A stretch of DNA of 26,327 bases from contig CAMLRO010000015.1 of NCBI GenBank assembly GCA_946482425.1, positions 1 through 26,327 of the forward strand, written 5' to 3'. This DNA is from an uncultured Lactobacillus sp. Its GTDB lineage: Bacteria > Bacillota > Bacilli > Lactobacillales > Lactobacillaceae. Made by a program: the position numbers and the translations under genes. Below, piece by piece: positions 8,307-22,035 of this stretch (positions are counted from its first letter, which is position 1; each line of letters starts with the position of its first letter). The notes under the pieces were generated by a model. The model had not been told where the DNA came from. It made no database searches and saw only the letters and a list, made by a program, of their open reading frames with translations.

Positions 8307-8324
8307 TTAAACGTTGTGAAAGTT

Positions 8325-8397
8325 GCTGATTTAGCTCAGTTGGTAGAGCGTTTCCCTCGTAAAGAAAAGGTCGCCAGTTCGATTCTGGCAATCAGCA
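8325..8397 (+). tRNA. tRNA-Thr (CGT), integration site of the mobile element
   Basis: This is a 73-base cloverleaf. The acceptor GCTGATT (8325-8331) pairs with AATCAGC (8390-8396), and the D stem is GCTC/GAGC. The anticodon loop CTCGTAA at 8356-8362 has anticodon CGT (8358-8360). The T arm is GCCAG-TTCGATT-CTGGC, and the discriminator is A397 of the 8000 block (8397). The last anticodon-stem pair (8355/8363) is a C-A mismatch. The 3' end is repeated after the integrase gene, so bases from 8384 onward are probably supplied by the element. Confidence 0.92.
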
Positions 8398-8400
8398 TAA
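8384..8400 (+). repeat. attL: 17-bp direct repeat in the tRNA-Thr 3' end
   Basis: TCTGGCAATCAGCATAA occurs here and exactly again at 19537-19553. The flanking bases differ at both copies. It spans the end of the T loop, the acceptor strand and three bases beyond the tRNA, the classic target of tyrosine integrases. Confidence 0.88.
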
Positions 8401-8419
8401 CAAAGGCTAATATAGCATT

Positions 8420-8456
8420 AAAGCCCGTTGTATCAATCTTGATATGACGGGCTTTT
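8420..8456 (+). terminator. Terminator after tRNA-Thr
   Basis: AAAGCCCGT (from 8420) pairs with ACGGGCTTT, and an inner TATCAA/TTGATA extends the stem. T-rich sequence follows. It lies inside the element and would end tRNA transcription. Confidence 0.85.
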
Positions 8457-8508
8457 GTTTGTTATGAAGCATTTTAAATAATTGTAAATTAATGTGAAAT
8501 GTTGTGGT

Positions 8509-8627
8509 CAGTCACACTATAGGTCACACAAAGTAAAATAAGTTGAAAATTTGTCGTCATAAATTTTTCAGGAATGGATATAACCCTTGATGTAGCAGGC
8601 TTAATTGCCTGCTTTTTTGTGTGACTG
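8509..8627. repeat. GTCACAC repeats flanking a small terminator near attL
   Basis: GTCACAC occurs at 8511-8517 and again as GTCACACA at 8523-8530. The exact inverse of CAGTCACAC (8509-8517), GTGTGACTG, lies at 8619-8627. Another GTCACACA lies near the right end at 19471. Repeats of this kind near both ends are candidate integrase arm-binding sites. Between them, at 8594-8618, is a small terminator-like hairpin (GCAGGC/GCCTGC plus T6). No gene was found here. Confidence 0.5.
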
Positions 8628-8708
8628 AGTGTTAACTTGCAGTTAGTGTAAAATACATGAAATATATATTAAACTATATAGTAAATTTTCATCATGTTTT
8701 AGAAATTG

Positions 8709-8736
8709 TTACGCTTAGATTGTAAACTTAGCGTAA
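8709..8736. repeat. Inverted repeat TTACGCT/AGCGTAA
   Basis: TTACGCT (8709-8715) and AGCGTAA (8730-8736) are perfect inverses around a 14-base centre. Their function is unknown. The segment 8628-8745 otherwise holds only A+T-rich sequence. Confidence 0.5.
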
Positions 8737-8745
8737 ACTAGATGA

Positions 8746-8792
8746 ATAAAAAATAGCTGAAACAAAATTGATCATTTCTTGTTTTAGCTATT
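8746..8792 (-). terminator. Intrinsic terminator of the lanthipeptide precursor gene
   Basis: Arms at 8752-8765 and 8779-8792 pair over 14 positions with one wobble or mismatch. On the minus strand the stem runs into TTTTTTATTC. It begins 22 bases after the precursor stop codon, which supports the small gene as a real, separately transcribed unit. Confidence 0.8.
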
Positions 8793-8814
8793 AGTCTTAA
8801 TTTAATATATGTTT

Positions 8815-8937
8815 TTATTCAACACATTCTATAGTTGTGCAATTACTGTAGTGGCAGCTATCACTATCTTCAGGAGCTTCATTAGTTGAATCAGCCATAT
8901 CAACTGCTAGTTTCTGCAATCTAATTAATTCAGTCAT
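8815..8937 (-). CDS. lanA: Candidate class III lanthipeptide precursor (LanA), 40 residues
   Basis: This small gene lies 113 bases upstream of the synthetase gene, on the opposite strand. The N-terminal leader MTELIRLQKLAVDMAD matches the class III pattern I-L-x-L-Q-x-L, seen for example in labyrinthopeptin leaders, at L-I-R-L-Q-K-L. A short acidic spacer (E-A-P-E-D) leads to the core SDSCHYSNCTTIECVE. The core has Cys28, Cys33 and Cys38 and hydroxy residues Ser25, Ser27, Ser31, Thr34 and Thr35. Ser31-x2-Thr34-x3-Cys38 fits a labionin-type motif with Thr in the second place. AGGTAGGA stands about 8 bases before the ATG, and a strong terminator follows the stop. lanA is the generic class name. 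Residue assignments are read directly; cleavage site and rings are inferred. Confidence 0.8.
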   Translation of the reverse strand: MTELIRLQKLAVDMADSTNEAPEDSDSCHYSNCTTIECVE

Positions 8938-9024
8938 TTTCAAGTCCTACCTTTCTATAAACCGCAATAATTATTACTTAAAGCAAGTATACAACATTTA
9001 TTTTTAATTGTTAATAAAAAATGA

Positions 9025-9030
9025 TATAAT
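9025..9030 (+). promoter_or_regulatory. -10 box upstream of the LanKC gene
   Basis: A perfect TATAAT lies 21 bases before the ATG; the -35 region is poor (TTTTAA at 9002-9007). GGTGAT at 9040-9045 is the ribosome site. The 113-base A+T-rich interval holds divergent promoters for precursor and synthetase. Confidence 0.5.
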
Positions 9031-9050
9031 TTTTAAAGGGTGATATTAAT

Positions 9051-11348
9051 ATGTGTAATTATTTGTTAAATAGTTATAAAAAGATTTATAGTACATCAGT
9101 TCTTCCAGACAAAGTTAAAGACATTTCATACTATCATATTTCCAGAAATGCCAATCATTATTTCCTTCAGTTTGACTTTTCAAATAAAAAATCATATCGG
9201 CAAGGATTTAAAATTCATATTTCAGCAACTATGAAAAACTATCAAGAGATTTTAAATTCAGTTTTTGAGTTCTGTAAAAATCATAAAGTTGATTTTAAAT
9301 ATATATCAAATATGAAAGAATTATATTTAAACCTTTCTGGTACTACTAATAATCTTTGGTCCACTGGAAAGTTCATAACAATTTATCCAAGTAATTATTC
9401 TGATTTTTTGAATTTGGTTAAAGATTTGTATGCTTTGCCTAATTTTAAAGACAAAGAAGGAATTTGCATCTTAACTGATAAAAAGTATAGGGATTCAAAT
9501 AATATCTTTTATCGTTATGGGATGTTATCTAAAAATGATAATAAAGGAATATATGATAAAAATGGTCAAAAATTATACGATGATTACAAAACTTTAGAAT
9601 ACAAATTACCTTACTTTGTTAAGGAGCCTTTTCCAAAAAAAGAAGCAAGCAATAAAAATAAAAGTAATAATCTTATTTTTAATAGCTATATACCAATTAA
9701 AGCATTACATTCTAAGGCTGCAGGCTCCGTTTTCCTAGTAGAAACTAATAAAAGAGAAAAGTATGTTCTTAAGAGTGCAATTAACGGATACTATGACACA
9801 ACACAGTCAAAAATAGAAATATTAAAGAATGAAGAAAGAAATATAAAAAGAATGCATCATTTAAGTTTCGTTCCTAACTATGTAGATTCTTTTTATGAAG
9901 AGAGAAATTATTTTTTAGTTGAAGAGTATATTAAGGGAATAACTGTAGATGATTATAGAGCCTTAACTAGTAATGACTTTATTTCAAACAAAGATACTGC
10001 TAGTAAATTCTCTAAGATTATTATAGATTTACTTTCTAAAGTTGATAAACTACATAAGTCTAATGTATTTTTAGGTGATATCTCTAGTCAAAATATTTTG
10101 GTTAACACAGATAAAAATGAAGTTTACTTTATTGATTTAGATCAAACTATATTTCTTGGAGAAGTAGATCTACATAAAAGAGAAAATAATTTCTATAGAA
10201 CAGAAGGATTTTATGATAATAAAATTCAGTATTTGACTCCATTAAAGCAAGATATTGAACAACTGGGATATTTACTTATTTCGTTTTTTTGCCGTGCTAA
10301 TATGTTTTTAAAAATTGATAATTCTGGTCAAACATCAATAAAATTTTTTGAAAAATTTGCCAATTTAAATAAAATACCTAAAGTTTTCGTTGAAGCAGCA
10401 GAACAGCTAATTAAGAATCCTGATATTGATCTGCAAAAAATGATAAATTACTTGAAAACTAGTAATTTAGATTCAGATTCAGTAATTAGCACTGATAGTT
10501 TTCCTGATAATTTTTTAAATAGATTAATTAAAACAGATGAATGCGCTAAAATTGATAACTTACTTATATCTGAGTCTTCCGATTCTTTTGTACTTACATA
10601 TACAGATGATTTTATTTATTCTGATAAACTTTCCAAGCTAAGATTGTATTATTTAAAAGATGAGTCGTTAATACAAAACGTATTTAAAGATTTTAAAATG
10701 AGAACAAAGCTTTTTGATAAAGTAAATATACTTATTAAGGAAATTGAAAAACAGAACAAAGATATTAAACAGCTTAGTTTAGAAAATATTATTTCATTAA
10801 TTTTTTGTTGTCTTGTTATCATTAAAGATTATAAACTGCATGATTCTGATTTCTTTAATAGAATAGTTGAATGTACAGATTTAATATTATCTAAATATTG
10901 TGTGCGAAACAAAAATTCAAAGTTGTTAGGATTTAAGGTAAAGCTTATATCAAAATATTTATCACCATACTTAAGTGACGGAACAGCAGGTATTTTAGAA
11001 TTATTGATATATTTTAAAAAATATTTTGGAATTAATAAGTATGATGAATACATTTTTGAGATGGCAAAAAACCTTAGTAAGGCTATAATGCCTAAAAATG
11101 CTTCACTTTATCGTGGCTTAGGTGGAATAGTTAATGCACTATTGGACTATAGAATGGCTTTTGATGATAGCAGATATGATAATACTATTATTAAAATGAT
11201 CAATTGCTTTAAGTACTATTCAATTAATTCACACGGTACTGCTTTAATGATTGATCAAAGTTTTGGAACAGCAACAACTAATTTTAAAGATGGTAATCAA
11301 GGAATAATTTATGTTTTACAAAAAGCAAAACATATTCTTGGAAAGTGA
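9051..11348 (+). CDS. lanKC: Class III lanthipeptide synthetase (LanKC)
   Basis: This is a trifunctional enzyme that phosphorylates Ser/Thr of the precursor core, eliminates phosphate and closes (methyl)lanthionine or labionin rings in the cytoplasm. The lyase domain carries Q-G-F-K-I-H-I-S-A (Lys54, His56), G-K-F-I-T-I-Y-P (106-113) and F-Y-R-Y-G (153-157), all hallmarks of class III/IV synthetases. The kinase domain has the ATP lysine in V-L-K-S-A (Lys241), the catalytic loop L-G-D-I-S-S-Q-N (Asp343, Asn348) and the metal-binding D-L-D at 362-364. The C-terminal cyclase-like domain has S-D-G-T-A-G-I-L (from 642) and Y-R-G-L-G-G (from 687). No W-C-Y-G or C-H-G zinc ligands are present (S-H-G-T-A replaces C-H-G), which argues for class III rather than IV. 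At 765 residues it is somewhat short for the family. The gene is very A+T-rich, suggesting transfer. lanKC is the generic class name. Confidence 0.9.
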   Translation: MCNYLLNSYKKIYSTSVLPDKVKDISYYHISRNANHYFLQFDFSNKKSYRQGFKIHISATMKNYQEILNSVFEFCKNHKVDFKYISNMKELYLNLSGTTNNLWSTGKFITIYPSNYSDFLNLVKDLYALPNFKDKEGICILTDKKYRDSNNIFYRYGMLSKNDNKGIYDKNGQKLYDDYKTLEYKLPYFVKEPFPKKEASNKNKSNNLIFNSYIPIKALHSKAAGSVFLVETNKREKYVLKSAINGYYDTTQSKIEILKNEERNIKRMHHLSFVPNYVDSFYEERNYFLVEEYIKGITVDDYRALTSNDFISNKDTASKFSKIIIDLLSKVDKLHKSNVFLGDISSQNILVNTDKNEVYFIDLDQTIFLGEVDLHKRENNFYRTEGFYDNKIQYLTPLKQDIEQLGYLLISFFCRANMFLKIDNSGQTSIKFFEKFANLNKIPKVFVEAAEQLIKNPDIDLQKMINYLKTSNLDSDSVISTDSFPDNFLNRLIKTDECAKIDNLLISESSDSFVLTYTDDFIYSDKLSKLRLYYLKDESLIQNVFKDFKMRTKLFDKVNILIKEIEKQNKDIKQLSLENIISLIFCCLVIIKDYKLHDSDFFNRIVECTDLILSKYCVRNKNSKLLGFKVKLISKYLSPYLSDGTAGILELLIYFKKYFGINKYDEYIFEMAKNLSKAIMPKNASLYRGLGGIVNALLDYRMAFDDSRYDNTIIKMINCFKYYSINSHGTALMIDQSFGTATTNFKDGNQGIIYVLQKAKHILGK

Positions 11349-11353
11349 CACCA

Positions 11354-12955
11354 ATGAAATTAAAAGATCTTTTAAAATTAAATATTCCACTAAGTGTTGT
11401 AATAATCTTTCTTACATTATTAGGATCTATATCAATTGCATATAAGAATTATATATTATCAATAACTATTAATGCCCTAATAGCAACAAACTGGAGTAAA
11501 TGGTGGCTCTTTACTTTCTTAGAAATGATAACAGATATTTTAGGACATTTTTTAAAGCGGTTAGGGATATATCTTTTTAGTAAACAAAGTCAAGCTTATA
11601 TTCATCAGATAAGATATCGCATAACCGAAAATTATTTTTCAAAAACTGATAACATTTCTAAAGTGTCTACAATGCAGAATCGATTAACAAATGATTTAAA
11701 TATGCTTTATGATTTGTATTTAACGCCAACTTATAGAATATGGGGGTTAGTTTGTGATATCATTTTTTCTTCCACAATGATTTTTACTTTTAATCCATTT
11801 TTACTTGCTCTAACTTTTATACTTGCAATTATTTTGCTTTTTGTCCCTAAAATATTGTCTAACTCTTTGCAAAAAGCCACCACTAAAATTTCTGTTAGCA
11901 ATTCAACCTATCTTAATACTTTAGAAAAATGGTTATCTGGTTTAGCTATTCTTCAACGCTACAATGTTCGTAAAAAATTGTTAACAGTATTATCAGATAG
12001 TTCGGCAAAGTTAGAACAGGCAACAGTCACTAAAGAGAAAAAAGTTAATGAATTAGAAACTGTCAACATGGCGGCTAATATGATAGCGCAGATGCTAGTT
12101 GATATTAGTGCAGGTATTTTAGTATTAACTGGTCAGTTAAACATAGGACTATATTTTAGTTTAGGAAACTACTCTAGCGTAATTTTTAGTGAATTAGGTG
12201 CGGTGACATCAAGGATTACCCAAGTTCAATCAACTAAGAGTTTAAGAGATAGTGTTAGTACTAGTTATTCAATTATTCTAAAAAACAATCAAGAATTATC
12301 TAAATCTACTTTAGACAATTTTGCTACAATTACAATTAATAATTTAAGTTTACAATTTCCTAATGCTGAGCGACTTGAATATCCAGATTTTACTATTAAT
12401 GCTGGTGAAAAAGTTTTGCTATCAGGTGATAGCGGTACAGGAAAGTCAACACTTTTAAAATTAATATTAGGAGAAATTATTCCATCAACAGGAACAATAA
12501 CTTTTAAAGATAAAAATGGCAACTCATTGCAACCAAACTTATCACAGATTGGTTATGTTCCCCAAGAAGCGCAACTATTTCCGGGAACGATTGAAGAAAA
12601 CATTACTATGTTTAATTCACAATTAGACCATAAGGCGTCGGCTTGGGCGGAAAAAATGCAATTATCCGCAGACTTAAATAAATTTCCAGCCGGGATTCAT
12701 ACAGCGGTCAATTTAAATAAGGAAAACTTATCGGGAGGACAAAAACAAAAAATTGTCTTAGCTAGAACAGAAACTTATGATAATAATATCATTTTAATTG
12801 ACGAAGGTACATCTGCCATAGATTCTAATGCTACACACAAAATTTTAAAAAATATTCTTTCTAGCAATTCAACAGTAATCTTCATTGCTCACAACTTAAC
12901 ACCGCAAATTCATCAAATGTTTGATCATGAAATTCATTTAAAAAATCCCCAATAA
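11354..12955 (+). CDS. lanT: ABC exporter of the lanthipeptide cluster (LanT-like)
   Basis: This 533-residue half-transporter has about six N-terminal membrane segments (to residue ~290) fused to a nucleotide-binding domain. Walker A G-D-S-G-T-G-K-S-T is at 358-366, the signature L-S-G-G-Q at 459-463, and Walker B I-I-L-I-D-E with Asp483/Glu484; H-N follows as the switch His. There is no N-terminal C39 peptidase domain, so it should export but not cut the leader. The ATG at 11354 is chosen over a GTG at 11345 because GGAAAG is well spaced from it. The gene starts 5 bases after the synthetase stop, so the two are surely co-transcribed. Export of the mature peptide, self-protection, or both is inferred from context. 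Confidence 0.88.
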   Translation: MKLKDLLKLNIPLSVVIIFLTLLGSISIAYKNYILSITINALIATNWSKWWLFTFLEMITDILGHFLKRLGIYLFSKQSQAYIHQIRYRITENYFSKTDNISKVSTMQNRLTNDLNMLYDLYLTPTYRIWGLVCDIIFSSTMIFTFNPFLLALTFILAIILLFVPKILSNSLQKATTKISVSNSTYLNTLEKWLSGLAILQRYNVRKKLLTVLSDSSAKLEQATVTKEKKVNELETVNMAANMIAQMLVDISAGILVLTGQLNIGLYFSLGNYSSVIFSELGAVTSRITQVQSTKSLRDSVSTSYSIILKNNQELSKSTLDNFATITINNLSLQFPNAERLEYPDFTINAGEKVLLSGDSGTGKSTLLKLILGEIIPSTGTITFKDKNGNSLQPNLSQIGYVPQEAQLFPGTIEENITMFNSQLDHKASAWAEKMQLSADLNKFPAGIHTAVNLNKENLSGGQKQKIVLARTETYDNNIILIDEGTSAIDSNATHKILKNILSSNSTVIFIAHNLTPQIHQMFDHEIHLKNPQ

Positions 12956-12991
12956 ATTTATAAACTGAAAAAAGGCTAGTGAAAATTGATA

Positions 12992-13010
12992 TGGACCCTA
13001 AAATTAGGAC
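12992..13010. repeat. Terminal inverted repeat relic of an IS3-family element
   Basis: TGGACCCTAAAATTAGGAC resembles the outer end of IS150-group elements (TGGACCC followed by a TTGG-like stretch). It lies just beyond the transposase relic. The opposite end is not recognisable. Confidence 0.5.
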
Positions 13011-13023
13011 AAATTATTAATTT

Positions 13024-13590
13024 TTAACTTAGGACTAGCTGCTGATATTTTATCTTAATTCTTTTGTTATTGTAGTAATCAATATATTCTCTAATTGCCT
13101 GTTCTAATTCAGTTGGCTTTTCAAGGCCATAAAGCATTTTCCGTTTTAAGATATCAAAAAACTATCCATTAATCCATCGTCTAATGAATTACCCTTGCAT
13201 GACATTGATTACTCAACACCACTACTTTTTTAGCCATGCCTGGAAAGTGGTGAGTTGATACTGCCAATCTCGGTCAGTGTAAGTCATATAGTGCCGGATG
13301 CTTTTGCCAAGTTAACTCTAATATTAGTCATTGTCTGTCTTAAGTTAGGACTGTAGGAAATTGTATAAGAAATAATTTCTTGCGTGCAGCCATTAATAAT
13401 TGTTGATAAGTAGGTCTTTTGTCCGTTAAGTTTGAACTCACTTACGTCGGAGTACCATTTATAATTAGGCAAGATAGAGAAGAAATTACGGCGAATTAAG
13501 AATAAGAATTTGGAATTATATAGTTTAGTTAAATCAACACCAAAAAGCTCAAGCAATTTCTGAACTACATTTTGTGTTTAAGAGTTTAGT
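13024..13590 (-). pseudogene. Degenerate IS3-family (IS150-like) transposase, orfB remnant
   Basis: An open stretch at 13284-13556 reads V-Q-K-L-L-E-L-F-G-V, then W-Y-S-D-V-S-E-F-K-L-N-G-Q-K-T-Y-L-S and E-I-I-S-Y-T-I-S. These are the N-terminal and first catalytic parts of an IS3 orfB integrase, with Asp of the DDE triad in S-D-V. Further along the minus strand, in shifted frames, come Y-Q-L-T-T-F-Q-A-W-L-K, then I-R-E-Y-I-D-Y-Y-N-N-K-R-I-K-I-K and a stop at 13024. Stops and frameshifts between these parts, and the missing orfA, make it non-functional. It separates the lanthipeptide cargo from the element core. Confidence 0.85.
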
Positions 13591-13625
13591 TTTTATAAGA
13601 CGCATTTTTCTGCATAAATTTTGAA

Positions 13626-14672
13626 TTAATCTAAGTTCCAAATTATGTAGCCATCACTAGTTTTGGTCGCACTTATAAAAGAAGTCTGGTAATAAGTTTC
13701 GGAAATAGAGTTAAGGAGAAAATTTAAAACTTTAAAAGCCGCATTTAGCACAGATTCATTTTCGTGTTCTGATGTACTTAGATTATTAACTTCTGCTGCC
13801 ATTCTTATATATATATTATTGTATTTTAACTCGTTATTTCCCTTATCTTGCGAAAGCGGATTGCCGCTTGGAAAATTTGTACGATTAATGGAAACCAAGA
13901 ATTGCGACTTGTTTTTTTTGGCAGTTTCAATAATTGAATCAAGTACTTTAATATCCGACTTGGCAAATTCTTTAATAATTTCTTTTGTGATACGCATATT
14001 TCCTTCGGGTATCCCTTTACCCAGAGAAATATGCGTTTTTTTAGTTTGGAGGGATTTTTCAAGTGCCATTTTGCCGGTAGTTAAGGCTTCATGGAAAAAC
14101 ATTATCAAGCTTGCAGAAGACAGCTCCTCAGAAGATACTGACCCAGTAAATAACTTACTAGAACTCATGAAATAATCAAATGCTTCAGAAAAGTTAATAA
14201 TACTAAGAACAAAATTGGCTACGGGCGCAATAAACTGATATTTCGTATATAAAATTTTTTCTTCTAATGTGCCAGCAGTTAATATATTTACGTCATCTGT
14301 AAAAAAATTCTTATCCCGAATTTCTTCAAGATACTTTACAGCGTAATTATATACATTGGTTAAATATTTTGTAACTTCTTGTCCATTGTCAAATAGAGTG
14401 TCAATATATTTCTTTTTTAGTGTGCGAATAATTGCTGCTCTTTGGACTGGATTTTCGGGTCTAGTAGGATTTGTGGGAGAAATCCAATTAGTAAAAGTTG
14501 AACTAGCAGTTTTTTTACCGTATTCATCGATCCGGATAGGTATTTTGTCTGCTTCTATAAAAATATTTTGATTTATATCTTCAATAACTTCAAAATTTTT
14601 CTTGTTTTTCTCTTTCCTATATTCAGTTAATAACTTAGGAAATTTGTTTTCAGGTTTAGGACATTCGGGCAT
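13626..14672 (-). CDS. Protein of unknown function, divergent from the element core operon
   Basis: This 348-residue soluble protein is not recognised. The ATG at 14672 is chosen because AAAGGAG lies 8 bases upstream; an in-frame ATG at 14708 lies inside a hairpin. The N-terminal ~90 residues, including K-K-T-A-S-S-T-F-T-N-W-I, then R-P-E-N and R-A-A-I-I-R-T-L-K-K-K-Y, loosely resemble helix-turn-helix regulators. The middle and C-terminal parts look mainly helical, with no membrane segment. Placed head-to-head with the replication/transfer operon across a palindrome-rich gap, it could be the element's regulator. A defence or cargo protein is equally possible. Confidence 0.65.
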   Translation of the reverse strand: MPECPKPENKFPKLLTEYRKEKNKKNFEVIEDINQNIFIEADKIPIRIDEYGKKTASSTFTNWISPTNPTRPENPVQRAAIIRTLKKKYIDTLFDNGQEVTKYLTNVYNYAVKYLEEIRDKNFFTDDVNILTAGTLEEKILYTKYQFIAPVANFVLSIINFSEAFDYFMSSSKLFTGSVSSEELSSASLIMFFHEALTTGKMALEKSLQTKKTHISLGKGIPEGNMRITKEIIKEFAKSDIKVLDSIIETAKKNKSQFLVSINRTNFPSGNPLSQDKGNNELKYNNIYIRMAAEVNNLSTSEHENESVLNAAFKVLNFLLNSISETYYQTSFISATKTSDGYIIWNLD

Positions 14673-14699
14673 AGTTTTGTCTCCTTTATTATTTTTGCT

Positions 14700-14728
14700 A
14701 CCCATCATTTTGTATAAGAATGATGGGT
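14700..14728. repeat. Perfect 10-bp inverted repeat before the unknown gene
   Basis: ACCCATCATT (14700-14709) and AATGATGGGT (14719-14728) enclose a 9-base loop, 28 bases before the chosen start of the minus-strand gene. T-rich sequence follows on the plus side. It may be a leader hairpin or an operator. Confidence 0.6.
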
Positions 14729-14762
14729 TATATTTTTGTTCTAATAGCTATCATACTTAACC

Positions 14763-14801
14763 ATGAAGATTAAATCTGATTGCAATCAAACAAATCTTCA
14801 T
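14763..14801. promoter_or_regulatory. Nested palindrome, candidate operator of the element core
   Basis: An outer inverted repeat ATGAAGATT (14763-14771)/AATCTTCAT (14793-14801) encloses an inner perfect palindrome TGATTGCAATCA (14777-14788). It lies in the gap between two divergent genes, where an element regulator would bind. Confidence 0.55.
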
Positions 14802-14842
14802 TAGTTGAATAGTATATAAGTGAAATTTTACACCTAATTATG

Positions 14843-14866
14843 TAAGCGTATGTAAAAAAGCGCTTA
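14843..14866. repeat. Inverted repeat TAAGCG/CGCTTA before the first core gene
   Basis: TAAGCG (14843-14848) and CGCTTA (14861-14866) flank a 12-base A-rich centre, ending 4 bases before the ribosome site of the next gene. A related AGCGTAA inverted repeat lies at 8709-8736. Its role is unknown; it may be an operator or an RNA hairpin controlling translation. Confidence 0.45.
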
Positions 14867-14880
14867 GATTGGAGATAAAT

Positions 14881-15219
14881 ATGACAATTAAAATAAATTT
14901 AACGGCAAAACAAGTATTAAATGGTATCACAGCGATTGTTACTGGAATTAATGAACGTAAAGCCAGTGAAAAATATGACAATGCTAAAGATGTTACCGAA
15001 TACCCTTATCTAGTGAGAATGGCAATTACAGTTGATAAAAACAATGTTAATAACGGTCAAATGTTAAACTTCAAACTTAAAAAGGTTGATGGATTAAAAG
15101 CTGGTAAAATGATCGATTTTGATAAAAGTTCTATTAAGAATGATCAAGTTAATTTATGGGCTAACCAACGTGGTTATGTTCAAGTTTCCATTAAAGGAGA
15201 TGAGATCATTGCAGGGTAA
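14881..15219 (+). CDS. Small conserved-looking protein, first gene of the element core operon
   Basis: This protein has 112 residues from the ATG at 14881, which has GGAG 6 bases upstream; a TTG at 14869 overlaps that site and is rejected. The sequence is hydrophilic with alternating beta-like stretches (Y-L-V-R-M-A-I-T-V, M-L-N-F-K-L-K-K-V, Y-V-Q-V-S-I-K) and no membrane segment. I do not recognise it. Its place directly before an FtsK-like translocase resembles the small orf22/orf23-type proteins that precede orf21 in Tn916-like elements, but that is position only. It overlaps the next gene by about 11 bases. Confidence 0.75.
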   Translation: MTIKINLTAKQVLNGITAIVTGINERKASEKYDNAKDVTEYPYLVRMAITVDKNNVNNGQMLNFKLKKVDGLKAGKMIDFDKSSIKNDQVNLWANQRGYVQVSIKGDEIIAG

Positions 15220-16339
15220 ACATACAACTATCTGTAATTATATTGAAAATGTGCTTGATAGTGTCTTATCGGATGAAGCAAGCACAATTAAGCAATCTTA
15301 TCTAGTCTTGGAAGTAATTAAGGAGCCTTGTGGCTTCTTGTTTATTCCGCGTTACCCAACAAATTTAGTATTAAATACAGATACCTATTACCGTATTTAC
15401 GATATTATTTCGGCAGCTGTTTTCCCTGAATATACCTGTGTTAGACCTACTTCTATGCAATTAGTGGAAGTGGACGGTGAACAATTAGCAACAGCCAGAG
15501 GGTTTTATTTTCCAGGTTACAAGGGTAAGAAACAACGGCTTGTTGGCACAATTACTAAAATTGTGGCTGATTATGATTTAAATAAGGAAATACCGTTGAT
15601 GCGGGGCTTAACGGTTGGCAGGAATGCCACCACTTGGATTATTAGTGGTAATACAGGCAGTGGTAAAAGCTATGCTTTACGCTATTTAGAAGAAATAATT
15701 AGCCGTTTAACTAATCAAAATGGTGATAAATCAGCACAGGTTATCATGATTGATCCCAAAAAGTCTGATGGTGCAAGATATGCGAAAAAACATACTGAAA
15801 TCAAATTGTTAATTCCAGAAGATAGCGATCGCCCAGAAGATTTTTTAACTAGAGTGAATGCGGAATTGGCTGCTGTAGTTAAGGAAATGCAGTTAAGGCA
15901 AAGTAAGCTTTATGAAGTTTCAAATAAGATTAGTACTGACGCTAACGAAATCAATGTACCACCGATTTTTGTTGTTTTGGAAGAAATGGCAAGCTTAACT
16001 TTGGGCTTAGCACCAACTTCAAGACAAGTTAAGGATTTATACCGTGAATTAGAATTAATTGCCTTACTTGGCAGAGAAAGCTTAATCAATTTAATTATTA
16101 CCAGTCAAATTGCTAGAAATGATATTGTGCCTATTCCGATTCGCTCACAGATGAACGTTAGAATTTTGCTGGGTAGAATTGATAAAGCAACCGTGCAGTA
16201 TTTATTTCCGTCAATGATTGATGGCTTGTCTATCCCTATTGGTGGCTTAGGAACAGGAATAATTGAGATTAATGATGGTAAACATTACGGGATTGAACCA
16301 CTTGCAATGCCGACAATAACCAAAGGAGAAGAATCGTGA
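15209..16339 (+). CDS. FtsK/SpoIIIE-type DNA translocase (TcpA/Orf21-like)
   Basis: This 376-residue P-loop ATPase probably delivers element DNA to a transfer channel, or handles it during excision and replication. Walker A I-S-G-N-T-G-S-G-K-S lies at about 145-154 and the Walker B-like I-F-V-V-L-E-E near 250-258. M-I-D-P-K-K-S-D between them is typical of FtsK-family coupling proteins. No membrane segments are present. The TTG at 15209 fits AAAGGAG with ideal spacing and the ATG at 15200 is the alternative; in-frame codons further upstream overlap the previous gene too far. The following gene starts on its stop codon (GTGA overlap). Confidence 0.82.
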   Translation: MQGKHTTICNYIENVLDSVLSDEASTIKQSYLVLEVIKEPCGFLFIPRYPTNLVLNTDTYYRIYDIISAAVFPEYTCVRPTSMQLVEVDGEQLATARGFYFPGYKGKKQRLVGTITKIVADYDLNKEIPLMRGLTVGRNATTWIISGNTGSGKSYALRYLEEIISRLTNQNGDKSAQVIMIDPKKSDGARYAKKHTEIKLLIPEDSDRPEDFLTRVNAELAAVVKEMQLRQSKLYEVSNKISTDANEINVPPIFVVLEEMASLTLGLAPTSRQVKDLYRELELIALLGRESLINLIITSQIARNDIVPIPIRSQMNVRILLGRIDKATVQYLFPSMIDGLSIPIGGLGTGIIEINDGKHYGIEPLAMPTITKGEES

Positions 16340-16791
16340 AGAGGATAGACTTAATTAATAAGTTATTTGATAAATTAATTGCTTTGCTTAGTAAGATCAG
16401 CGTAATTTTGTTGATTGTTCTAGTAATTCTGCTAATCGTACATTATTTTCTAAAATTTTATGGTAAATCAATTTCTAAAACAATTGCATTAGAACAAACA
16501 TTAAAGCTTATGGAACCAGAAAAGCCAGATAAAATAATTGTGGCAGTTAATAAAGTGGTTTGTTGGGCGGGTGTTAAATACCTTGATAATAAAGAGCGTG
16601 TGCAGATAATTGTTCCAACTAAACGCTGGTTTCAATTATCATCACAATTAGAAGTTAAAAAACGGATTAGGGAAATGCTTAATTCAGAAGACTTCAGATT
16701 ATTTTTAATGGATAATTTAAGCAATTATCGTTTTGTAAGTAAGCCTGACTATTATCATAATCAGTTTGTCTTAATCGGTACAAGAATTTAA
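16336..16791 (+). CDS. Small single-pass membrane protein of the element core
   Basis: This 151-residue protein starts with GTG overlapping the translocase stop by 4 bases, so the two are translationally coupled. One strong membrane helix (I-S-V-I-L-L-I-V-L-V-I-L-L-I-V near residues 20-40) is followed by a soluble domain of ~105 residues. Basic residues before the helix suggest a cytoplasmic N terminus, with the soluble domain outside. The family is not recognised. Its coupling to an FtsK-like protein that lacks membrane segments suggests it may anchor the translocase to the membrane, which is inference only. Confidence 0.75.
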   Translation: MKRIDLINKLFDKLIALLSKISVILLIVLVILLIVHYFLKFYGKSISKTIALEQTLKLMEPEKPDKIIVAVNKVVCWAGVKYLDNKERVQIIVPTKRWFQLSSQLEVKKRIREMLNSEDFRLFLMDNLSNYRFVSKPDYYHNQFVLIGTRI

Positions 16792-16796
16792 TAGAG

Positions 16797-16842
16797 GCAA
16801 GGTGCCAGCTTTGTCCTCAAGACAAAAAGAATGGCACCTTGC
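16797..16842. repeat. Large perfect hairpin: terminator-like or origin element
   Basis: GCAAGGTGCCA (16797-16807) pairs perfectly with TGGCACCTTGC (16832-16842). An inner stem TTTGTC (16810-16815)/GACAAA (16821-16826) closes the 5-base loop CTCAA. It directly follows the membrane protein stop, and no clean T run follows on either strand. It may be a cruciform used by the Rep protein rather than a simple terminator. Confidence 0.65.
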
Positions 16843-16862
16843 ATAATTTATAAATATTCTAC

Positions 16863-16943
16863 TGTGCAAGTGTGTTAAGCATTGATATAACAACATTTGC
16901 TGGGCTTGTTATGGCAAATGTTAAAAGTGTGCAAACTGTGCAG
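16863..16943. other. Candidate replication origin or nick region upstream of rep
   Basis: TGTGCA occurs in three direct copies (16863, 16928, 16937). Two alternative overlapping stems, AACATTTGC/GCAAATGTT (16892-16922) and ATAACAA/TTGTTAT (16887-16912), lie between them. HUH initiators of the RepB type nick in the loop of such a hairpin next to direct repeats, and this interval lies immediately before the rep gene. The nick site itself is not identified. Confidence 0.5.
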
Positions 16944-16954
16944 AAGGGAATTAT

Positions 16955-17995
16955 ATGGCAGAGATTAGAGCTAGACAGTTTATGTACATGCAAGATTTTG
17001 ACCATTTAAAGATAGATTTTACTGAACTAACCAATATTTTAACTAAGGCTAATATTCAAGAGTGGGCTTATATAATTCATGACCAAGATTTTGATCAAGA
17101 TAATAAGCTAATTAGGAAACATCTACATGTGGTCTTAAAATATGCTAATCCGCAAATACTTTCTCATGTTGTAAGGCTTTTTAATGATGAACCGCAATAT
17201 TTAGAAGTTTGGCAAGGAAGAATCAGTAACGCTTATAGCTATCTAATTCATGCAACATTGGAAGCTAAAGATAAGTATCAATACGATCCTAATAGTGTGG
17301 TGGCTTCATTTGATTTTCCCGCAAGGATTACTGAAATACAAAGCAGTGTTAACCAAAGCAGGTTAAATTCTAAAGTAGTGGCTAATTTCTTAACGCAATA
17401 TGCTAATGAAGAAATTGATTATCAAGAATTAGCGGATATTATTGGTTTAGCTGAAGTTGCCAAAAGAAAAAGTGTGATTGACAATATTACCAAATTAATC
17501 GCGGACAAAAAGCATGAAGAATGGTTACATGAATATCATGATCGCAAAGCAGAAACAATTTGGTTATGGGGCAGTGCAGGAGTTGGTAAAACACGTTATG
17601 CCAACAAGCTAGTTCGTGGTGAAAAAGTTGCTATTTTAGGCAGCAGTCGGGATTACTTTCAAGATTATCATGGTGAACATTATGTAATTTTGAATGATTT
17701 GCGTCCCAATGATTTTAGATATGCCGACTTATTAAGGCTATTAGATCCATATGAGCATGATAAAGTAGCGCCAAGACGTTATCATGATGTGAAATTGAAC
17801 ATTGAAATGTTGATTATTACTACTCCTTATAGTCCGTTTGAATTTTATCAACATGTGAAGATTGCTGACGAAAGAACAGATACTTTTGAGCAGCTTAAAA
17901 GACGAATTCATGCAATCCATATTACACCCAAATTTATTGCAGAAGTATTTAAAGACAGTGAATCTGAATATGAAGAATTATTTGAAGGTAAGTAA
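16955..17995 (+). CDS. RepB-like HUH initiator fused to a P-loop ATPase
   Basis: This 346-residue replication initiator has two domains. The N-terminal domain resembles pMV158/pLS1-type Rep_2 proteins. A-Y-I-I-H-D-Q-D-F-D precedes the metal-binding H-U-H motif H-L-H at 56-58, and S-N-A-Y-S-Y-L-I-H (91-99) holds the likely nicking tyrosine, with Tyr96 the best fit to the Y-L-x-H pattern. The C-terminal domain has Walker A G-S-A-G-V-G-K-T at 206-213 and looks like a small superfamily 3-type helicase. It should nick and unwind the element origin for rolling-circle replication after excision, or for mobilization. AGAAGGGA precedes the ATG. The next gene begins 5 bases after its stop. Confidence 0.85.
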   Translation: MAEIRARQFMYMQDFDHLKIDFTELTNILTKANIQEWAYIIHDQDFDQDNKLIRKHLHVVLKYANPQILSHVVRLFNDEPQYLEVWQGRISNAYSYLIHATLEAKDKYQYDPNSVVASFDFPARITEIQSSVNQSRLNSKVVANFLTQYANEEIDYQELADIIGLAEVAKRKSVIDNITKLIADKKHEEWLHEYHDRKAETIWLWGSAGVGKTRYANKLVRGEKVAILGSSRDYFQDYHGEHYVILNDLRPNDFRYADLLRLLDPYEHDKVAPRRYHDVKLNIEMLIITTPYSPFEFYQHVKIADERTDTFEQLKRRIHAIHITPKFIAEVFKDSESEYEELFEGK

Positions 17996-17999
17996 AACA

Positions 18000-18188
18000 A
18001 TGAAAGAAGATGAAAAAATGTTTGGCAATGAATTACTTAATGCTAGGCAAATAGCAGAAAAGTTAGAAATTTCTAGCACCTACTTTTTTAAATTAACTAA
18101 ATTAGGTATGCCATTTCACCGCGTAACTCCAAGAGGTAGAAAGTTCTATAACTATGATGAAGTGGTAAGTTGGATTAGAAATCGGTAG
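18000..18188 (+). CDS. Excisionase-like small DNA-binding protein (Xis)
   Basis: This 62-residue protein has a winged helix-turn-helix pattern: L-L-N-A-R-Q-I-A-E-K-L-E-I-S-S-T-Y-F-F-K-L, then F-H-R-V-T-P-R-G-R-K-F-Y-N-Y-D-E-V-V-S-W-I. This fits MerR/Xis-type excisionases that bind next to attachment sites and favour excision. It lies between rep and int, the usual place for xis. The ATG at 18000 is chosen because earlier in-frame codons lie inside rep; a second ATG at 18018 is also possible. Confidence 0.78.
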   Translation: MKEDEKMFGNELLNARQIAEKLEISSTYFFKLTKLGMPFHRVTPRGRKFYNYDEVVSWIRNR

Positions 18189-18252
18189 GAACTATGGTAA
18201 AATTTAAAGTGGTCAAGGGTATGTTCTTCTTGAAAATAAAAGGAGAGTAAAC

Positions 18253-19485
18253 ATGCCAATTAGTAAAATTAATAAAGGTAAGAAAGCTGGTAAGTATCGC
18301 GTAAGAATACAGCCAAGAGATGAACATACTGGAAAAGTTATTCCAGTTCCTAGTCAAGTTGCGGACAATTATCGGGCAGCTAAAGCTCTTTATGAAAAAA
18401 TGTGGGTAGATTTTCGTTCTAATCCACGTGGTAATTATCAGGAACTGAATCAACCACTGGTGCAATCATATAAAAGTTTTATTGAAAGTGAGCATAAGTT
18501 AGGTAGATGGCAATCTGCAACTACTTATAAAGCGTGGACTTATACAGTTAGGCTATTAGAAGATTATTTTGGTGATAAAAAGGTAAAAGATATTACTGAA
18601 ACTGATATCAGGCAATTTGCTCGTGATTATGTTGAAAAACATCATGCAAGTGTTGCGCCACATGCAACTATCGAACGCCAGTTACAGATTATTAGATGTT
18701 ATTTTGGTTCATTAGATAATATTGTAAAAAATCCTGTTCCTGTAAAAGCTCTGTATAAGTTCTTTCGCAATGATGAGATGACTGTACCAGATGAAAAATA
18801 TGTTTTTACTGATCAAGAAATTACTGCTATTATTGCAGATATTAAAAAACGTTTAGCTTTGACTAAAACAAATTATTGGTGTAGTCGCTTGGCAATTTGG
18901 ATAGCTTTGGAAACAGGAATGCGACCGCAAGAAATTCAAGCTTTGAAATGGACAGATTTAACTAAAGATCATGATAAAGTAGTGTTTGAAATTAGCGATT
19001 CATGGAATAGCAAAGCAAAGAAATTAAACGGTCATTTAAAAAGTAGACCTAAAGGCGCTAAAAGATTAACTTTGCCAATATCTGAAACTTTGTATAAGAC
19101 ATTAATGATCTTTAAAGACAAGCAAACTGATGTATTGCAAGAATATGGTTTAGATAATGAGCAGGATTATATTTTATTAGCATTAACTACCTATAATTTA
19201 TGTTCGTTAGGGATGCCAATAGATCAACGTGGCTTAAATGATATGATACGTAAAATCTGTAAAAAGATTGGTGTTAATAATCGTGGCTTGCGTGTTAGTA
19301 TGTATACTTGTCGTCATACGGTGGCAACCAAATTAGCCAACATTCCAGGTATGAGTTACCCTTGGGCAGCTTATCGATTAGGTCATTCATTAAAAACTTT
19401 TATGAAAGTTTATGTTCATGTTGATCAAGATAAGAACGAAGATATGTTAAATATCGTCAGTTCACAATTAGTCACACAAAATTAG
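18253..19485 (+). CDS. int: Tyrosine recombinase/integrase
   Basis: This 410-residue phage-type integrase catalyses recombination between the element and the tRNA-Thr 3' end. The N-terminal ~60 residues (K-I-N-K-G-K-K-A-G-K-Y-R-V-R-I) look like the AP2-like arm-binding domain, and a SAM-like core-binding domain follows to ~175. Catalytic residues are Arg224 (E-T-G-M-R-P-Q-E-I), Arg354 (Y-T-C-R-H-T), His378 (L-G-H-S) and the nucleophile Tyr387 (K-V-Y-V-H-V). The first His of the H-x-x-R box is Tyr here, as in some relatives. AAAGGAGAG precedes the ATG. The gene ends 51 bases from attR, and its last codons contain one GTCACACA repeat. Confidence 0.95.
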   Translation: MPISKINKGKKAGKYRVRIQPRDEHTGKVIPVPSQVADNYRAAKALYEKMWVDFRSNPRGNYQELNQPLVQSYKSFIESEHKLGRWQSATTYKAWTYTVRLLEDYFGDKKVKDITETDIRQFARDYVEKHHASVAPHATIERQLQIIRCYFGSLDNIVKNPVPVKALYKFFRNDEMTVPDEKYVFTDQEITAIIADIKKRLALTKTNYWCSRLAIWIALETGMRPQEIQALKWTDLTKDHDKVVFEISDSWNSKAKKLNGHLKSRPKGAKRLTLPISETLYKTLMIFKDKQTDVLQEYGLDNEQDYILLALTTYNLCSLGMPIDQRGLNDMIRKICKKIGVNNRGLRVSMYTCRHTVATKLANIPGMSYPWAAYRLGHSLKTFMKVYVHVDQDKNEDMLNIVSSQLVTQN

Positions 19486-19536
19486 ATACAATAGTTATAA
19501 ATGCTAGAGTAGTACGACTTTAAAGTGTTTTGCTAC

Positions 19537-19553
19537 TCTGGCAATCAGCATAA
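19537..19553 (+). repeat. attR: second copy of the 17-bp direct repeat
   Basis: TCTGGCAATCAGCATAA is identical to 8384-8400. An inverted repeat AGAGTAG (19506-19512)/CTACTCT (19533-19539) overlaps its left edge. From here to 19747 no gene is seen, only A+T-rich sequence. Confidence 0.88.
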
Positions 19554-19747: not shown

Positions 19748-21199
19748 CTATAATAGACTATTTTTCCAAGTATCATAATAATTAGCAAATCTAGGGTACC
19801 TGTTTTTGAATTCTTCAATCGAGAGTGATGTATCAAGTAACTTATTATAAGTTTGAAAAACGCTAAAATGATCAACGCTAGCAAACCTTCGTTCATAGCA
19901 TTGAGAATTATTATCTGCTTTTTGAATTAAATCTTCTATTGCTGTTTTATCGTATTTTTCTAGAAATGGCGCTATCCAAGATGTAAATATATTATTAGCA
20001 GAATCGTAAGACGAAGAATGTGCGTAAATAATATTTGCTAGCTCAAAAAATTGATGTGAATAGCCACTTCTTGAATATATGTTATACAGCTTTTGAACTT
20101 CATTTGTATAATTTATAAGATCGTTTTTCTGCATATTTGGTATATAACAATTTATAAGTTCAAAGAAATATTCTGCGAGAGTTATTTTATCCATATTATC
20201 TGCTCTGCTGGATCCGTACATACTTGTATACACTTTGTCAGAAGAAGATAGTAGTTTATTTTGATGTTGGGCAATGCTGTTAGAATCAATAAAGTAGTTC
20301 TTTAAATAAGTTATTGGATCTTTATATGAAAACTTGACAAGATTTTCTTTTAAAAACTTAGGAACATTACTTGAATATAGCTCAGGATATCTTTGAAATA
20401 ATAGGCTTAATTTTTCAAATACATCAGGAGAATTAACTAAAACATTCTTAAATAAATTTGATGATTCTTGAAAATATTTTTTAGTCAGGTCTGGTTTATG
20501 ATCAATCATTATAGCTAAAGTTTTATAAAGTATGTTTCTATTTTTATTACAATCAATGTCATCGATGCAAAACGTAAATTTGAATATATTTTTTAACACA
20601 TAGATATAAATTTTATCATTGTTGTCAATTTCGACAAAATATTTTAGTTTTAAAAAATCGGTCAATGTCTCTTCATCGTTAATAAGAAGAGCATCACTTT
20701 TAGAAGCCAATTCTGTAACTAGGTGTTCAACAATTTTTCCATTGGGATGAGCTTGTTGGAGGAAAATGTTATCTAGACTTTCTCGAATAAGACCGGAGAC
20801 AATTTCCATGCTAGGTTCTTGTAATCTACTCAATGAATTAGAATCAAGATTTGGATGAGCACATAAATTTCTCCAATTTTTAAGTCCCTCGATTGTGGCA
20901 AAAGCCTGTTTACTTAAAAAATCTGGCATATTTTCTTCTATTTTTTTGATCATTTTTGTTTCTTTAGATGGAACATAGTTTTTTTTATTATCCTGTATAT
21001 CTTTCAAAATATCTTTTGCTGCTTTATCTTTATAATTTTTATCGAGATAGTCTAATTTATCAATAATGTTTGCCATTACCGCCGCATAAAGCATGACAAT
21101 GGCTGATCTGTAATTTTTATTTTCATAAGATGAAATAACTTCTTTTAGATACTCTCTTGATTCATTATCAGGGATTTTTTGAATTTCGAATTCGAACAT
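19748..21199 (-). CDS. HEPN-motif protein, candidate RNase defence or toxin protein
   Basis: This 483-residue soluble protein has an N-terminal helical domain: residues ~15-50 Y-R-S-A-I-V-M-L-Y-A-A-V-M-A-N-I-I-D-K-L, then W-R-N-L-C-A-H-P-N at 109-117. Arg110 and His115 make the R-x4-H signature of HEPN ribonucleases. The remaining ~340 residues are mostly helical and not recognised; they may sense a trigger. HEPN proteins with such unrelated C-terminal parts are common in abortive-infection systems. AGAAAGGAAAG precedes the ATG. It stands alone and is divergent from the HigA-like gene. A defence role is inferred from the motif and from the adjacent restriction enzyme. Confidence 0.7.
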   Translation of the reverse strand: MFEFEIQKIPDNESREYLKEVISSYENKNYRSAIVMLYAAVMANIIDKLDYLDKNYKDKAAKDILKDIQDNKKNYVPSKETKMIKKIEENMPDFLSKQAFATIEGLKNWRNLCAHPNLDSNSLSRLQEPSMEIVSGLIRESLDNIFLQQAHPNGKIVEHLVTELASKSDALLINDEETLTDFLKLKYFVEIDNNDKIYIYVLKNIFKFTFCIDDIDCNKNRNILYKTLAIMIDHKPDLTKKYFQESSNLFKNVLVNSPDVFEKLSLLFQRYPELYSSNVPKFLKENLVKFSYKDPITYLKNYFIDSNSIAQHQNKLLSSSDKVYTSMYGSSRADNMDKITLAEYFFELINCYIPNMQKNDLINYTNEVQKLYNIYSRSGYSHQFFELANIIYAHSSSYDSANNIFTSWIAPFLEKYDKTAIEDLIQKADNNSQCYERRFASVDHFSVFQTYNKLLDTSLSIEEFKNRYPRFANYYDTWKNSLL

Positions 21200-21543
21200 G
21201 TACTTTCCTTTCTGACAACTTTATTTTAGCTATTTTTGCACCCTAATCTTTATCCTTGATGTAAGAGAAAGATCAAAAGTCAATATAAATTTTTCTCAGC
21301 TAAGCAAGGTATTTATACAATATATAAATAATATTTTCATTTTCTAAAGAAAAAAATTATCGAATGATTGGAAACAAAGCTTAATTTATAGACTTTTTCC
21401 TATTATATCACTTTATTAGTATATTAAATTATAAATATTTGTACTAAAAACAATTCAGAAAAAGTATCTATTTAGATAAGTTCACAAGCTTTTTAGCAAT
21501 TATAGATCCAATTTTAATTATCACTAATTAGGAGTTTAATAAA
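21200..21543. other. A+T-rich divergent intergenic region, no gene seen
   Basis: This is 344 bases between the divergent HEPN and HigA-like genes. I looked for a HigB-type toxin before the antitoxin gene and found no open frame or recognisable fragment. It presumably holds the two divergent promoters. Confidence 0.55.
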
Positions 21544-21837
21544 ATGAGTAAAATTCCAACTCCCACAATTGGAGAAATATTAAAAGAAAAATTTATGAAG
21601 CCGCTACAAAATTCAGCATATAAACTAGCAAAATTAATAGGTGTGCCAACTTCAAAAATTAAAAATATATTGCATGATAGAGTTGGAATAACAGTGGATA
21701 CTTCTATTAGATTAGGAAGAATATTTGGAATGAGTGACAAGTATTTTCTAAATTTGCAGGAAGATATAGATTTTCGTAATGCTAAGATAAAAAAGGGTAA
21801 AGAATACGATCAAATAAAAAAGTACCAATCTGCATAG
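21544..21837 (+). CDS. HigA/VapI-type antitoxin, XRE helix-turn-helix protein
   Basis: This 97-residue DNA-binding protein has the HigA pattern. P-T-P-T-I-G-E-I-L-K-E-K-F-M-K-P-L is followed by an XRE helix-turn-helix (A-Y-K-L-A-K-L-I-G-V-P-T-S-K-I-K-N-I-L-H-D-R). V-D-T-S-I-R-L-G-R-I-F-G-M-S-D-K-Y-F-L-N-L-Q comes next, which is diagnostic of this family. AGGAG lies 8 bases before the ATG. No HigB toxin is adjacent on either side, so it is an orphan antitoxin, or it now regulates the restriction gene 198 bases downstream in the same direction, or the HEPN gene. The pairing is speculative. Confidence 0.85.
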   Translation: MSKIPTPTIGEILKEKFMKPLQNSAYKLAKLIGVPTSKIKNILHDRVGITVDTSIRLGRIFGMSDKYFLNLQEDIDFRNAKIKKGKEYDQIKKYQSA

Positions 21838-21993
21838 CTGTTTTATCCGTTGATATGTTTGAAATTTGAAATAGTCTTTTAAAATAATTTTATGTATATG
21901 CTTATATTTCTTGCCAGGTAAAAGTTTCCTGCAATTAAATATAAAAACTGAATTTGGTTCGAGATTTTATATTCTAATAGAAACGCTATCTTG

Positions 21994-21999
21994 TATAAT
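21994..21999 (+). promoter_or_regulatory. -10 box before the restriction-modification gene
   Basis: A perfect TATAAT lies 37 bases before the ATG; the -35 region is weak (TTCTAA at 21972-21977). It suggests the enzyme has its own promoter rather than depending only on the HigA-like gene. Confidence 0.45.
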
Positions 22000-22035
22000 A
22001 GAATTAATTACTAGATTAATTACAAGGATAAAATA

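Follow-up and report, generated by a model that had tools for sequence, protein, structure and literature searches.

Several lanthipeptide synthetases, class III enzymes (LanKC) among them, have been described in structural detail. PneKC and SalKC (salivaricin), which we take to be Streptococcus enzymes from the same order as the locus considered here, Lactobacillales, are three-domain class III enzymes with solved structures, and CuvL, the curvocidin synthetase (8cav), has been titled trifunctional. ThurKC of Bacillus thuringiensis, which is paired with ThurA1 (8sam, 8sao and 8sap), has a lyase, a kinase and a metal-independent cyclase in that order. The available portion of the ThurKC report (PMC10604976) describes a leader bound as a helix, via an LELQL element, in a groove lined by residues of the lyase and the kinase; a cyclase domain required for dehydration, even in trans; Ser726, Phe770 and Asp771 in the place of zinc ligands; and a D771A variant that yields mostly a partly dehydrated, phosphorylated intermediate without a protected labionin ring. 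Here we analyzed a 26,327-nucleotide stretch of DNA from an uncultured Lactobacillus sp. (the window; contig CAMLRO010000015.1), in which a LanKC with a shortened cyclase lies divergent from a gene for a 40-residue precursor peptide. With a probability of roughly 0.8, the locus represents a class III-type lanthipeptide cassette in minimal form (precursor, LanKC and exporter) carried on an integrative element in a tRNA-Thr gene, with modification, ring formation and export proceeding as proposed below.

The first-pass annotation of this DNA had stated that class III peptides come mainly from actinobacteria and in a few cases from Bacillus and Paenibacillus, and that no characterized Lactobacillus member was known. 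The second statement stands, in that a chemically characterized Lactobacillus class III product was not found among the open-licence papers that the searches listed, but the first was overstated, as Lactobacillus class III/IV clusters are known from genome mining and the PneKC and SalKC structures are solved. In the parts of these sources that were available, antiSMASH predictions for the bee-gut Lactobacillus Firm-5, the symbiont group to which the window also belongs, cover lanthipeptide classes I-IV, with no isolated class III product described there (PMC10673953); class III and IV systems occur in Firmicutes, with 55% of class III precursors unannotated (PMC7268733); modified class III products come from Bacillus and Myxococcus (PMC9576775); and class IV clusters are found in Lacticaseibacillus (PMC13067958). 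The accessible text of PMC10134562 names no class III lanthipeptide. A LanKC subfamily with distinct cyclase domains, LanKC-Hbt, is reported in the available text of PMC10206099; it resembles the present case in being defined by its cyclase, but the cyclase of its member NorKC gained His cross-linking, whereas that of the window enzyme is shortened.

A LanKC with lyase, kinase and zinc-less cyclase motifs had been recognized in the window. All three domains do pass their Pfam cut-offs (RamC-type phospho-Ser/Thr lyase, RamC_N PF25816, 107.5 bits against 27; kinase, PF00069, 36.3 against 31.7; LanC-like domain, PF05147 or LANC_like, 27.1 against 23.2), the kinase residues Lys241, Glu261, Asp343, Asn348 and Asp362 are invariant in 24 aligned rows, and the zinc ligands are missing, the ThurKC zinc-ligand positions aligning with Ser and Tyr-Arg. 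However, the enzyme is not a standard LanKC: its cyclase is strongly reduced, and the LANC_like match covers profile positions 3-74 of 350 only. The predicted fold matches ThurKC, PneKC and SalKC across all three domains, reaching near the end of ThurKC, and thereby supports assignment to class III. ThurKC and the window enzyme share domain order, full-length fold, a cyclase of the metal-independent kind and an LQ-type leader on the substrate, but they are only ~19-20% identical. ThurKC also differs in having a complete cyclase (residues 491-862) that makes labionin, Asp771 where the window enzyme has Arg, and a two-component protease; no protease was recognized among the scanned open reading frames (ORFs) of the element. 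PneKC and SalKC are longer (865-871 residues) and 16-18% identical in the structural match, and CuvL (865 residues) is 14-15% identical.

The small substrate had been proposed to combine an LQ-type leader with a Ser/Thr/Cys-rich core, and its conservation beside related LanKC genes had been named as the check to make; both expectations were borne out. An alignment-based scan of genome contigs gave 204 relatives, the best 80 of them retained as 79 loci. Around the readable close relatives of LanKC we searched for short ORFs preceded by a ribosome-like site and beginning with a class III-like leader. A divergent precursor-like ORF, upstream of LanKC and on the opposite strand, was present at 8/8 distinct Lactobacillaceae loci after duplicates were merged: the window, Lactobacillus sp. 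ESL0246, L. kefiranofaciens (counted once, as a genome contig and a plasmid carry the same peptide), L. psittaci, L. jensenii, Levilactobacillus brevis CD0817, L. gasseri (counted once, with the same peptide on 3/3 listed plasmids) and G012, in which LanKC is split over two contigs and contains internal stops. These ORFs share a leader of the form M-x-[EL]-[LM]-x-x-L-Q-x-L and a core [ST]xxC. The window leader, LIRLQKL, fits the LxLQxL-type class III leader, and Met1, Leu7, Gln8, Leu10 and Cys28 are invariant across the seven aligned precursors. The precursor ORF is unlikely to have arisen by chance, because the combination of leader motif and ribosome site is so rare in Markov-random sequence: 1.58 Mb held nine such ORFs, two of them with a later [ST]xxC. 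When a profile built from seven of these peptides was searched against 75 genomes of the genus, four genomes had hits at E <= 8e-14, but these hits are the profile's own rows and so offer no new proof; no other hit in the set was better than E 0.012.

A single-sequence scan of the genome contigs returned 27 pattern matches and no relative, the phage collection contained no match, and the viral contigs gave one distant match, examined for precursors only. The arrangement around the precursor varies: a 390-aa transposase ORF lies between precursor and LanKC in L. brevis, in L. kefiranofaciens the precursor is followed by two ABC genes on the same strand, and no 11-mer is shared by three or more of seven divergent promoter regions. 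At G012, which comprises contigs C175 and C148 (L027 and L028), one contig holds LanKC-like pieces with internal stops, and the other holds an N-terminal LanKC piece with an intact divergent precursor ORF; this LanKC is possibly a decaying or misassembled copy.

The gene call itself was right. The precursor ORF comprises 40 codons on the minus strand, from ATG 8937 to the stop at 8815, and lies upstream of and divergent from LanKC at a distance of 113 bases. The ORF listing begins it at TTG 8943, but ATG 8937 is the preferred start and is preceded by the ribosome-site-like AAAGGTAGGA, in agreement with the ribosome site claimed for the gene. The leader begins MTELIRLQKL and the core ends SDSCHYSNCTTIECVE. 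The strong intrinsic terminator reported downstream is real in outline, as a hairpin of 7+8 pairs (-12.4 kcal/mol, z -2.2) followed by a T tract that could end the precursor transcript; however, "strong" was generous, as the hairpin is A+U-rich, was equalled by 6/200 shuffles and was not among the sites of a consensus terminator scan. The region contains 38 promoter-like consensus sites, as compared with an average of 32.9 after shuffling. At E <= 0.1 the peptide had no match in Pfam or NCBIfam. The seven-precursor profile retrieved 11 proteins from a set of 5.8 billion, including a hypothetical protein of the honeybee symbiont Lactobacillus helsingborgensis that is 39/40 identical to the window peptide, and related peptides are already deposited for L. 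helveticus and Levilactobacillus yiduensis. Therefore, the precursor is not hidden in every annotation.

Two features were unexpected: the reduced cyclase at this locus and the shrunken core in relatives. On a single alignment of 116 sequences, 325 residues follow the kinase in the window enzyme, as compared with 304-345 in full-length members of the Lactobacillaceae clade (273 and 135 in the shorter proteins P0018 and P0021), 307-364 in other short enzymes, 243-260 in those of Streptococcus type and 379-462 in a longer group. GxxG-hydrophobic motifs after the kinase average 3.1 in 22 short rows (range 2-4) and 7.1 (range 4-11) across the longer group (66 rows). The window enzyme keeps the last three GxxG repeats (first glycines at residues 644, 689 and 748), which are retained across the clade and modeled with confidence; its model has about ten long helices past residue 480. 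A full LanC toroid has fourteen. Truncation of the cyclase, as the short LANC_like match might imply, was rejected in favor of a shortened domain, given the fold and the conservation of the final GxxG motif at the C-terminal end. The missing equivalent of Asp771 was likewise dropped as proof of a dead cyclase. The Phe770-Asp771 position of ThurKC aligns with Tyr-Arg in the window enzyme, but among 24 aligned sequences Asp occurs there only in P0010, from the short-cyclase clade, and in none of the three canonical ones; Tyr-Arg therefore does not demonstrate a dead cyclase.

An enzyme of 737-796 aa accompanies a divergent short precursor in each of L. kefiranofaciens, L. gasseri, L. psittaci, L. 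jensenii, ESL0246 and L. brevis CD0817. Thirteen of 15 other loci of the genus Lactobacillus (L006-L020) have LanKC-like frames of 826-876 aa, and the 1.5-kb flanks of all 15 contained no precursor recognizable with the patterns used. At the wider locus L108, by its length on one contig with L008, a loose 58-aa candidate (10352-10528) directly follows LanKC.

The window core contains SDSC, YSNC and TIEC, with three Cys and no aromatic residue before the ring Ser/Thr; the short-cyclase cassettes of relatives have one or two core Cys. The window core fits the loose labionin-type motif [ST]xx[ST]x(2-5)C, but the match spans another Cys. Twelve precursors beside short-cyclase enzymes were compared with 30 from other class III loci, the latter mostly chosen for a strict leader pattern and with enzyme length determined for some of them. 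The form [FWYA][ST]xxC was found in 10/12 against 7/30 and the labionin-type motif in 4/12 (absent from 8/12) against 27/30. The p-values of the comparison (0.0005 and 0.001) are indicative only, as one precursor per locus was chosen by hand and the rows are not independent. The [ST]xxC motif alone separates the groups poorly (12/12 vs. 21/30). Cores beside LanKC read FTFKC in E. gallinarum, FTWKC in Paucisalibacillus and ATYKC in Streptococcus, where the LQ leader is missing and the precursor was assigned by position only. The window core is atypical, and the idea of a shrinking core consequently rests more on the relatives than on the window. In Streptococcus, 29-aa ORFs ending TYKC[ST]VHKG and lacking an LQ leader (L075:1311-1400, L077:7774-7863 and L081:7587-7676) lie upstream of LanKC-like genes of 644-646 aa. 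In Paucisalibacillus globulus (L036:6429-6687), a tandem pair of identical 32-aa precursors lies on the other strand from a shortened LanKC, with a 286-aa ORF between, so the opposite-strand layout exists beyond the Lactobacillaceae.

We considered whether the short ORF is not the substrate at all, LanKC acting on another peptide or being itself a decayed kinase. The internal stops in the G012 pieces would suit such a reading, but all eight loci share the leader motif and the divergent placement, the window LanKC is a fully open frame with conserved active-site residues, and outside its own rows the seven-peptide profile gave nothing better than E 0.012 in the 75 genomes of the genus; we give this explanation very little weight. 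It is equally improbable that the locus is a class IV (LanL) system, although published Lactobacillus clusters possibly of the same family carry that label: in the accessible text of the respective reports, class IV is assigned to clusters of L. helsingborgensis, together with class I (PMC10673953), and of L. mulieris and L. kefiranofaciens (PMC10449518, PMC10137885). However, antiSMASH 5.0 did not separate class III from class IV, according to the available text of PMC7268733, and the window enzyme scores higher with the NCBIfam class III model than with the class IV model (252 vs. 177 bits), lacks zinc ligands and is paired with an LQ-type leader. Homology, peptide conservation and the predicted fold together give good support to a class III precursor/LanKC pair.

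A more serious rival, possible but to our minds still the less probable account, is that cyclase catalysis has been lost, so that the enzyme only phosphorylates and eliminates, the LanC-like remnant serves as an allosteric scaffold, and any ring forms spontaneously or the product is a linear dehydropeptide. The reduction to about three GxxG motifs from about seven and to 325 residues after the kinase argues for it, as does Tyr-Arg at a position where mutation impaired ThurKC, and the need of ThurKC for its cyclase during dehydration, even in trans, would explain why the remnant was retained (the ThurKC results being those in the available text cited above). Against this stand the conservation and confident folding of the three last repeats, the presence of [ST]xxC in 12/12 compared precursors, and the finding that position 771 is not diagnostic.

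Under the preferred reading of a class III-type cassette, and by analogy with ThurKC, the leader helix TELIRLQKL would dock between the lyase and kinase domains, the kinase would phosphorylate core Ser and Thr, and the lyase would eliminate phosphate to leave dehydrated residues. Addition of Cys to these would close small rings; four-residue (methyl)lanthionines would probably form at SDSC and TIEC, and possibly another ring at the middle Cys. The reduced cyclase, without zinc ligands or an Asp at the Asp771 position, probably at least activates the kinase and guides the core. We infer that the ABC protein, whose ORF overlaps the LanKC stop and has no C39 peptidase match, exports the product, and that the leader protease is probably supplied by the host. 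An ABC transporter is likewise present in the four short-cyclase cassettes examined (ESL0246, L. brevis, L. gasseri and L. kefiranofaciens). Close relatives are the most likely target of the product, as rivals to be inhibited or as receivers of a signal, but this is a guess.

Several observations weigh against this reading. The enzyme scores 252 bits against the 575 required by the LanKC equivalog NF038151; when six relatives were scanned, the five short-cyclase ones were also below the cut-off (245-277) and a canonical Paenibacillus one was above it (736). The window core lacks the [FWYA][ST]xxC form that 10/12 compared precursors of short-cyclase enzymes have, the seven-peptide profile missed the G012 precursor found by motif scan, and no protease or immunity gene was recognized among the scanned ORFs of the element. 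Supernatants of Firm-5 strains with lanthipeptide clusters did not inhibit Melissococcus plutonius, as stated in the accessible text of PMC10673953, the presence of the window cluster in those strains not being established. Finally, dehydration may proceed without enzymatic cyclization, which would make "lanthipeptide" a loose name.

We also considered a broader evolutionary proposal. It holds that, within the Bacillota, one branch of the class III enzymes (Lactobacillaceae, Paucisalibacillus and Streptococcus, with Enterococcus gallinarum perhaps alone) is losing the LanC toroid stepwise while lyase and kinase stay intact, that its precursors have meanwhile shrunk to 29-44 residues around [F/W]-[S/T]-x-x-C, and that the enzymes are dehydratases keeping the leftover cyclase mainly as a kinase switch, the four-residue ring closing with little or no catalysis. 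We regard this as doubtful, its standing being weakened by the trees. On the first tree (84 of the 116 aligned sequences, without the L. psittaci, L. jensenii, L. gasseri and Streptococcus enzymes as read from loci), the short type needs six changes; therefore, a single origin is not established and the short type is not cleanly one clade. P0025, with 401 residues after the kinase, falls inside the branch and P0054, with 283, outside. E. gallinarum lies inside the wider branch (40 rows, 95) on the first tree and outside it on the second, to which the enzymes just named were added (82 rows). Ten rows elsewhere, with 2-45 residues after the kinase, have no cyclase, and all lie outside the branch; full cyclase loss therefore also happened outside it. 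A description of this shortened-cyclase branch was not found among the open-licence papers that the searches listed.

With such small substrates (29-44 aa) and shortened synthetases, the minimum of LanC needed for dehydration and ring closure becomes directly testable. The distribution of the cassettes suggests that mobile DNA carries them between lactobacilli of gut, dairy and bee origin; it also suggests that automated annotation gives the enzyme a weak label and in some cases leaves the precursor out. If stepwise loss did occur, it would offer a route by which a three-domain LanKC loses its cyclase, in a lineage separate from the cyclase-less enzymes elsewhere in the tree, and one that has spread between lactobacilli by plasmids and integrative elements. 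The features of the window are listed in the table.

Table. Features of the cassette and of the putative integrative element, in window coordinates
Feature	Position	Strand	Basis
Class III lanthipeptide precursor, 40 aa	8815..8937	-	ORF; divergent homologs at 7 further distinct Lactobacillaceae loci; 39/40 L. helsingborgensis match
LanKC, 765 aa: RamC_N lyase ~32-204, kinase ~205-470, reduced LanC-like cyclase ~480-765	9051..11348	+	Pfam, alignment, fold model
ABC transporter, permease and ATPase	11345..12955	+	Pfam/NCBIfam; in-frame ATG 11354 is the likelier start (comparison with L031)
Possible precursor promoter, TTAACA-17-TATACT	8986..9014	-	10/12 consensus match only
A+U-rich terminator-like hairpin and T tract, 3' of precursor	8752..8792	-	Folding energy
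tRNA-Thr (CGT), integration target	8324..8398	+	tRNA call; identity with G001, G025 and G030 stops at 8398
Left attachment repeat, TCTGGCAATCAGCATAA	8384..8400	+	17 bp, exact copy at 19537-19553
Right attachment repeat	19537..19553	+	Exact 17-bp copy of left repeat
Transposase-like remnant, 90 aa, downstream of ABC transporter	13284-13556	-	Sequence match
ORF of 360 aa inside element	13626-14708	-	No match at E <= 0.001 in Pfam, NCBIfam, PHROGs or PADLOC
FtsK/SpoIIIE/TraB-like ATPase, probable coupling or translocase protein	15119..16339	+	Pfam 22.0 bits, below cut-off 24; further searches
Rep_OBD and RNA_helicase protein, rolling-circle initiator or relaxase-like	16955..17995	+	Pfam
Excisionase-like helix-turn-helix (HTH) protein, true start probably inside ORF	17862..18188	+	Weak, 1.7e-5 and 3.6e-4
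Tyrosine integrase of element	18253..19485	+	Domain search

The lanthipeptide cassette is the cargo of the region between the attachment repeats (8384-19553, 11.15 kb). The match of the window to the three related genomes G001, G025 and G030 (97.6%, 88.4% and 88.5% over ~4 kb) stops at 8398, beyond which these continue with other DNA, and only 0.01 chance matches to the attachment repeat are expected, with up to two mismatches allowed. The region is most likely an integrative element inserted in tRNA-Thr, as judged from its sequence features, and is possibly mobilizable. Plasmids of L. gasseri and L. kefiranofaciens carry relatives of the cassette. The L. brevis LanKC and transporter genes are flanked by two transposase genes, with the precursor outside. 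Beside the element, at 19748-24819, are defence-like genes: one ORF matches PD-T7-3 (7.7e-80), another is a type IIG restriction-methylase, and an HTH antitoxin-like ORF separates them.

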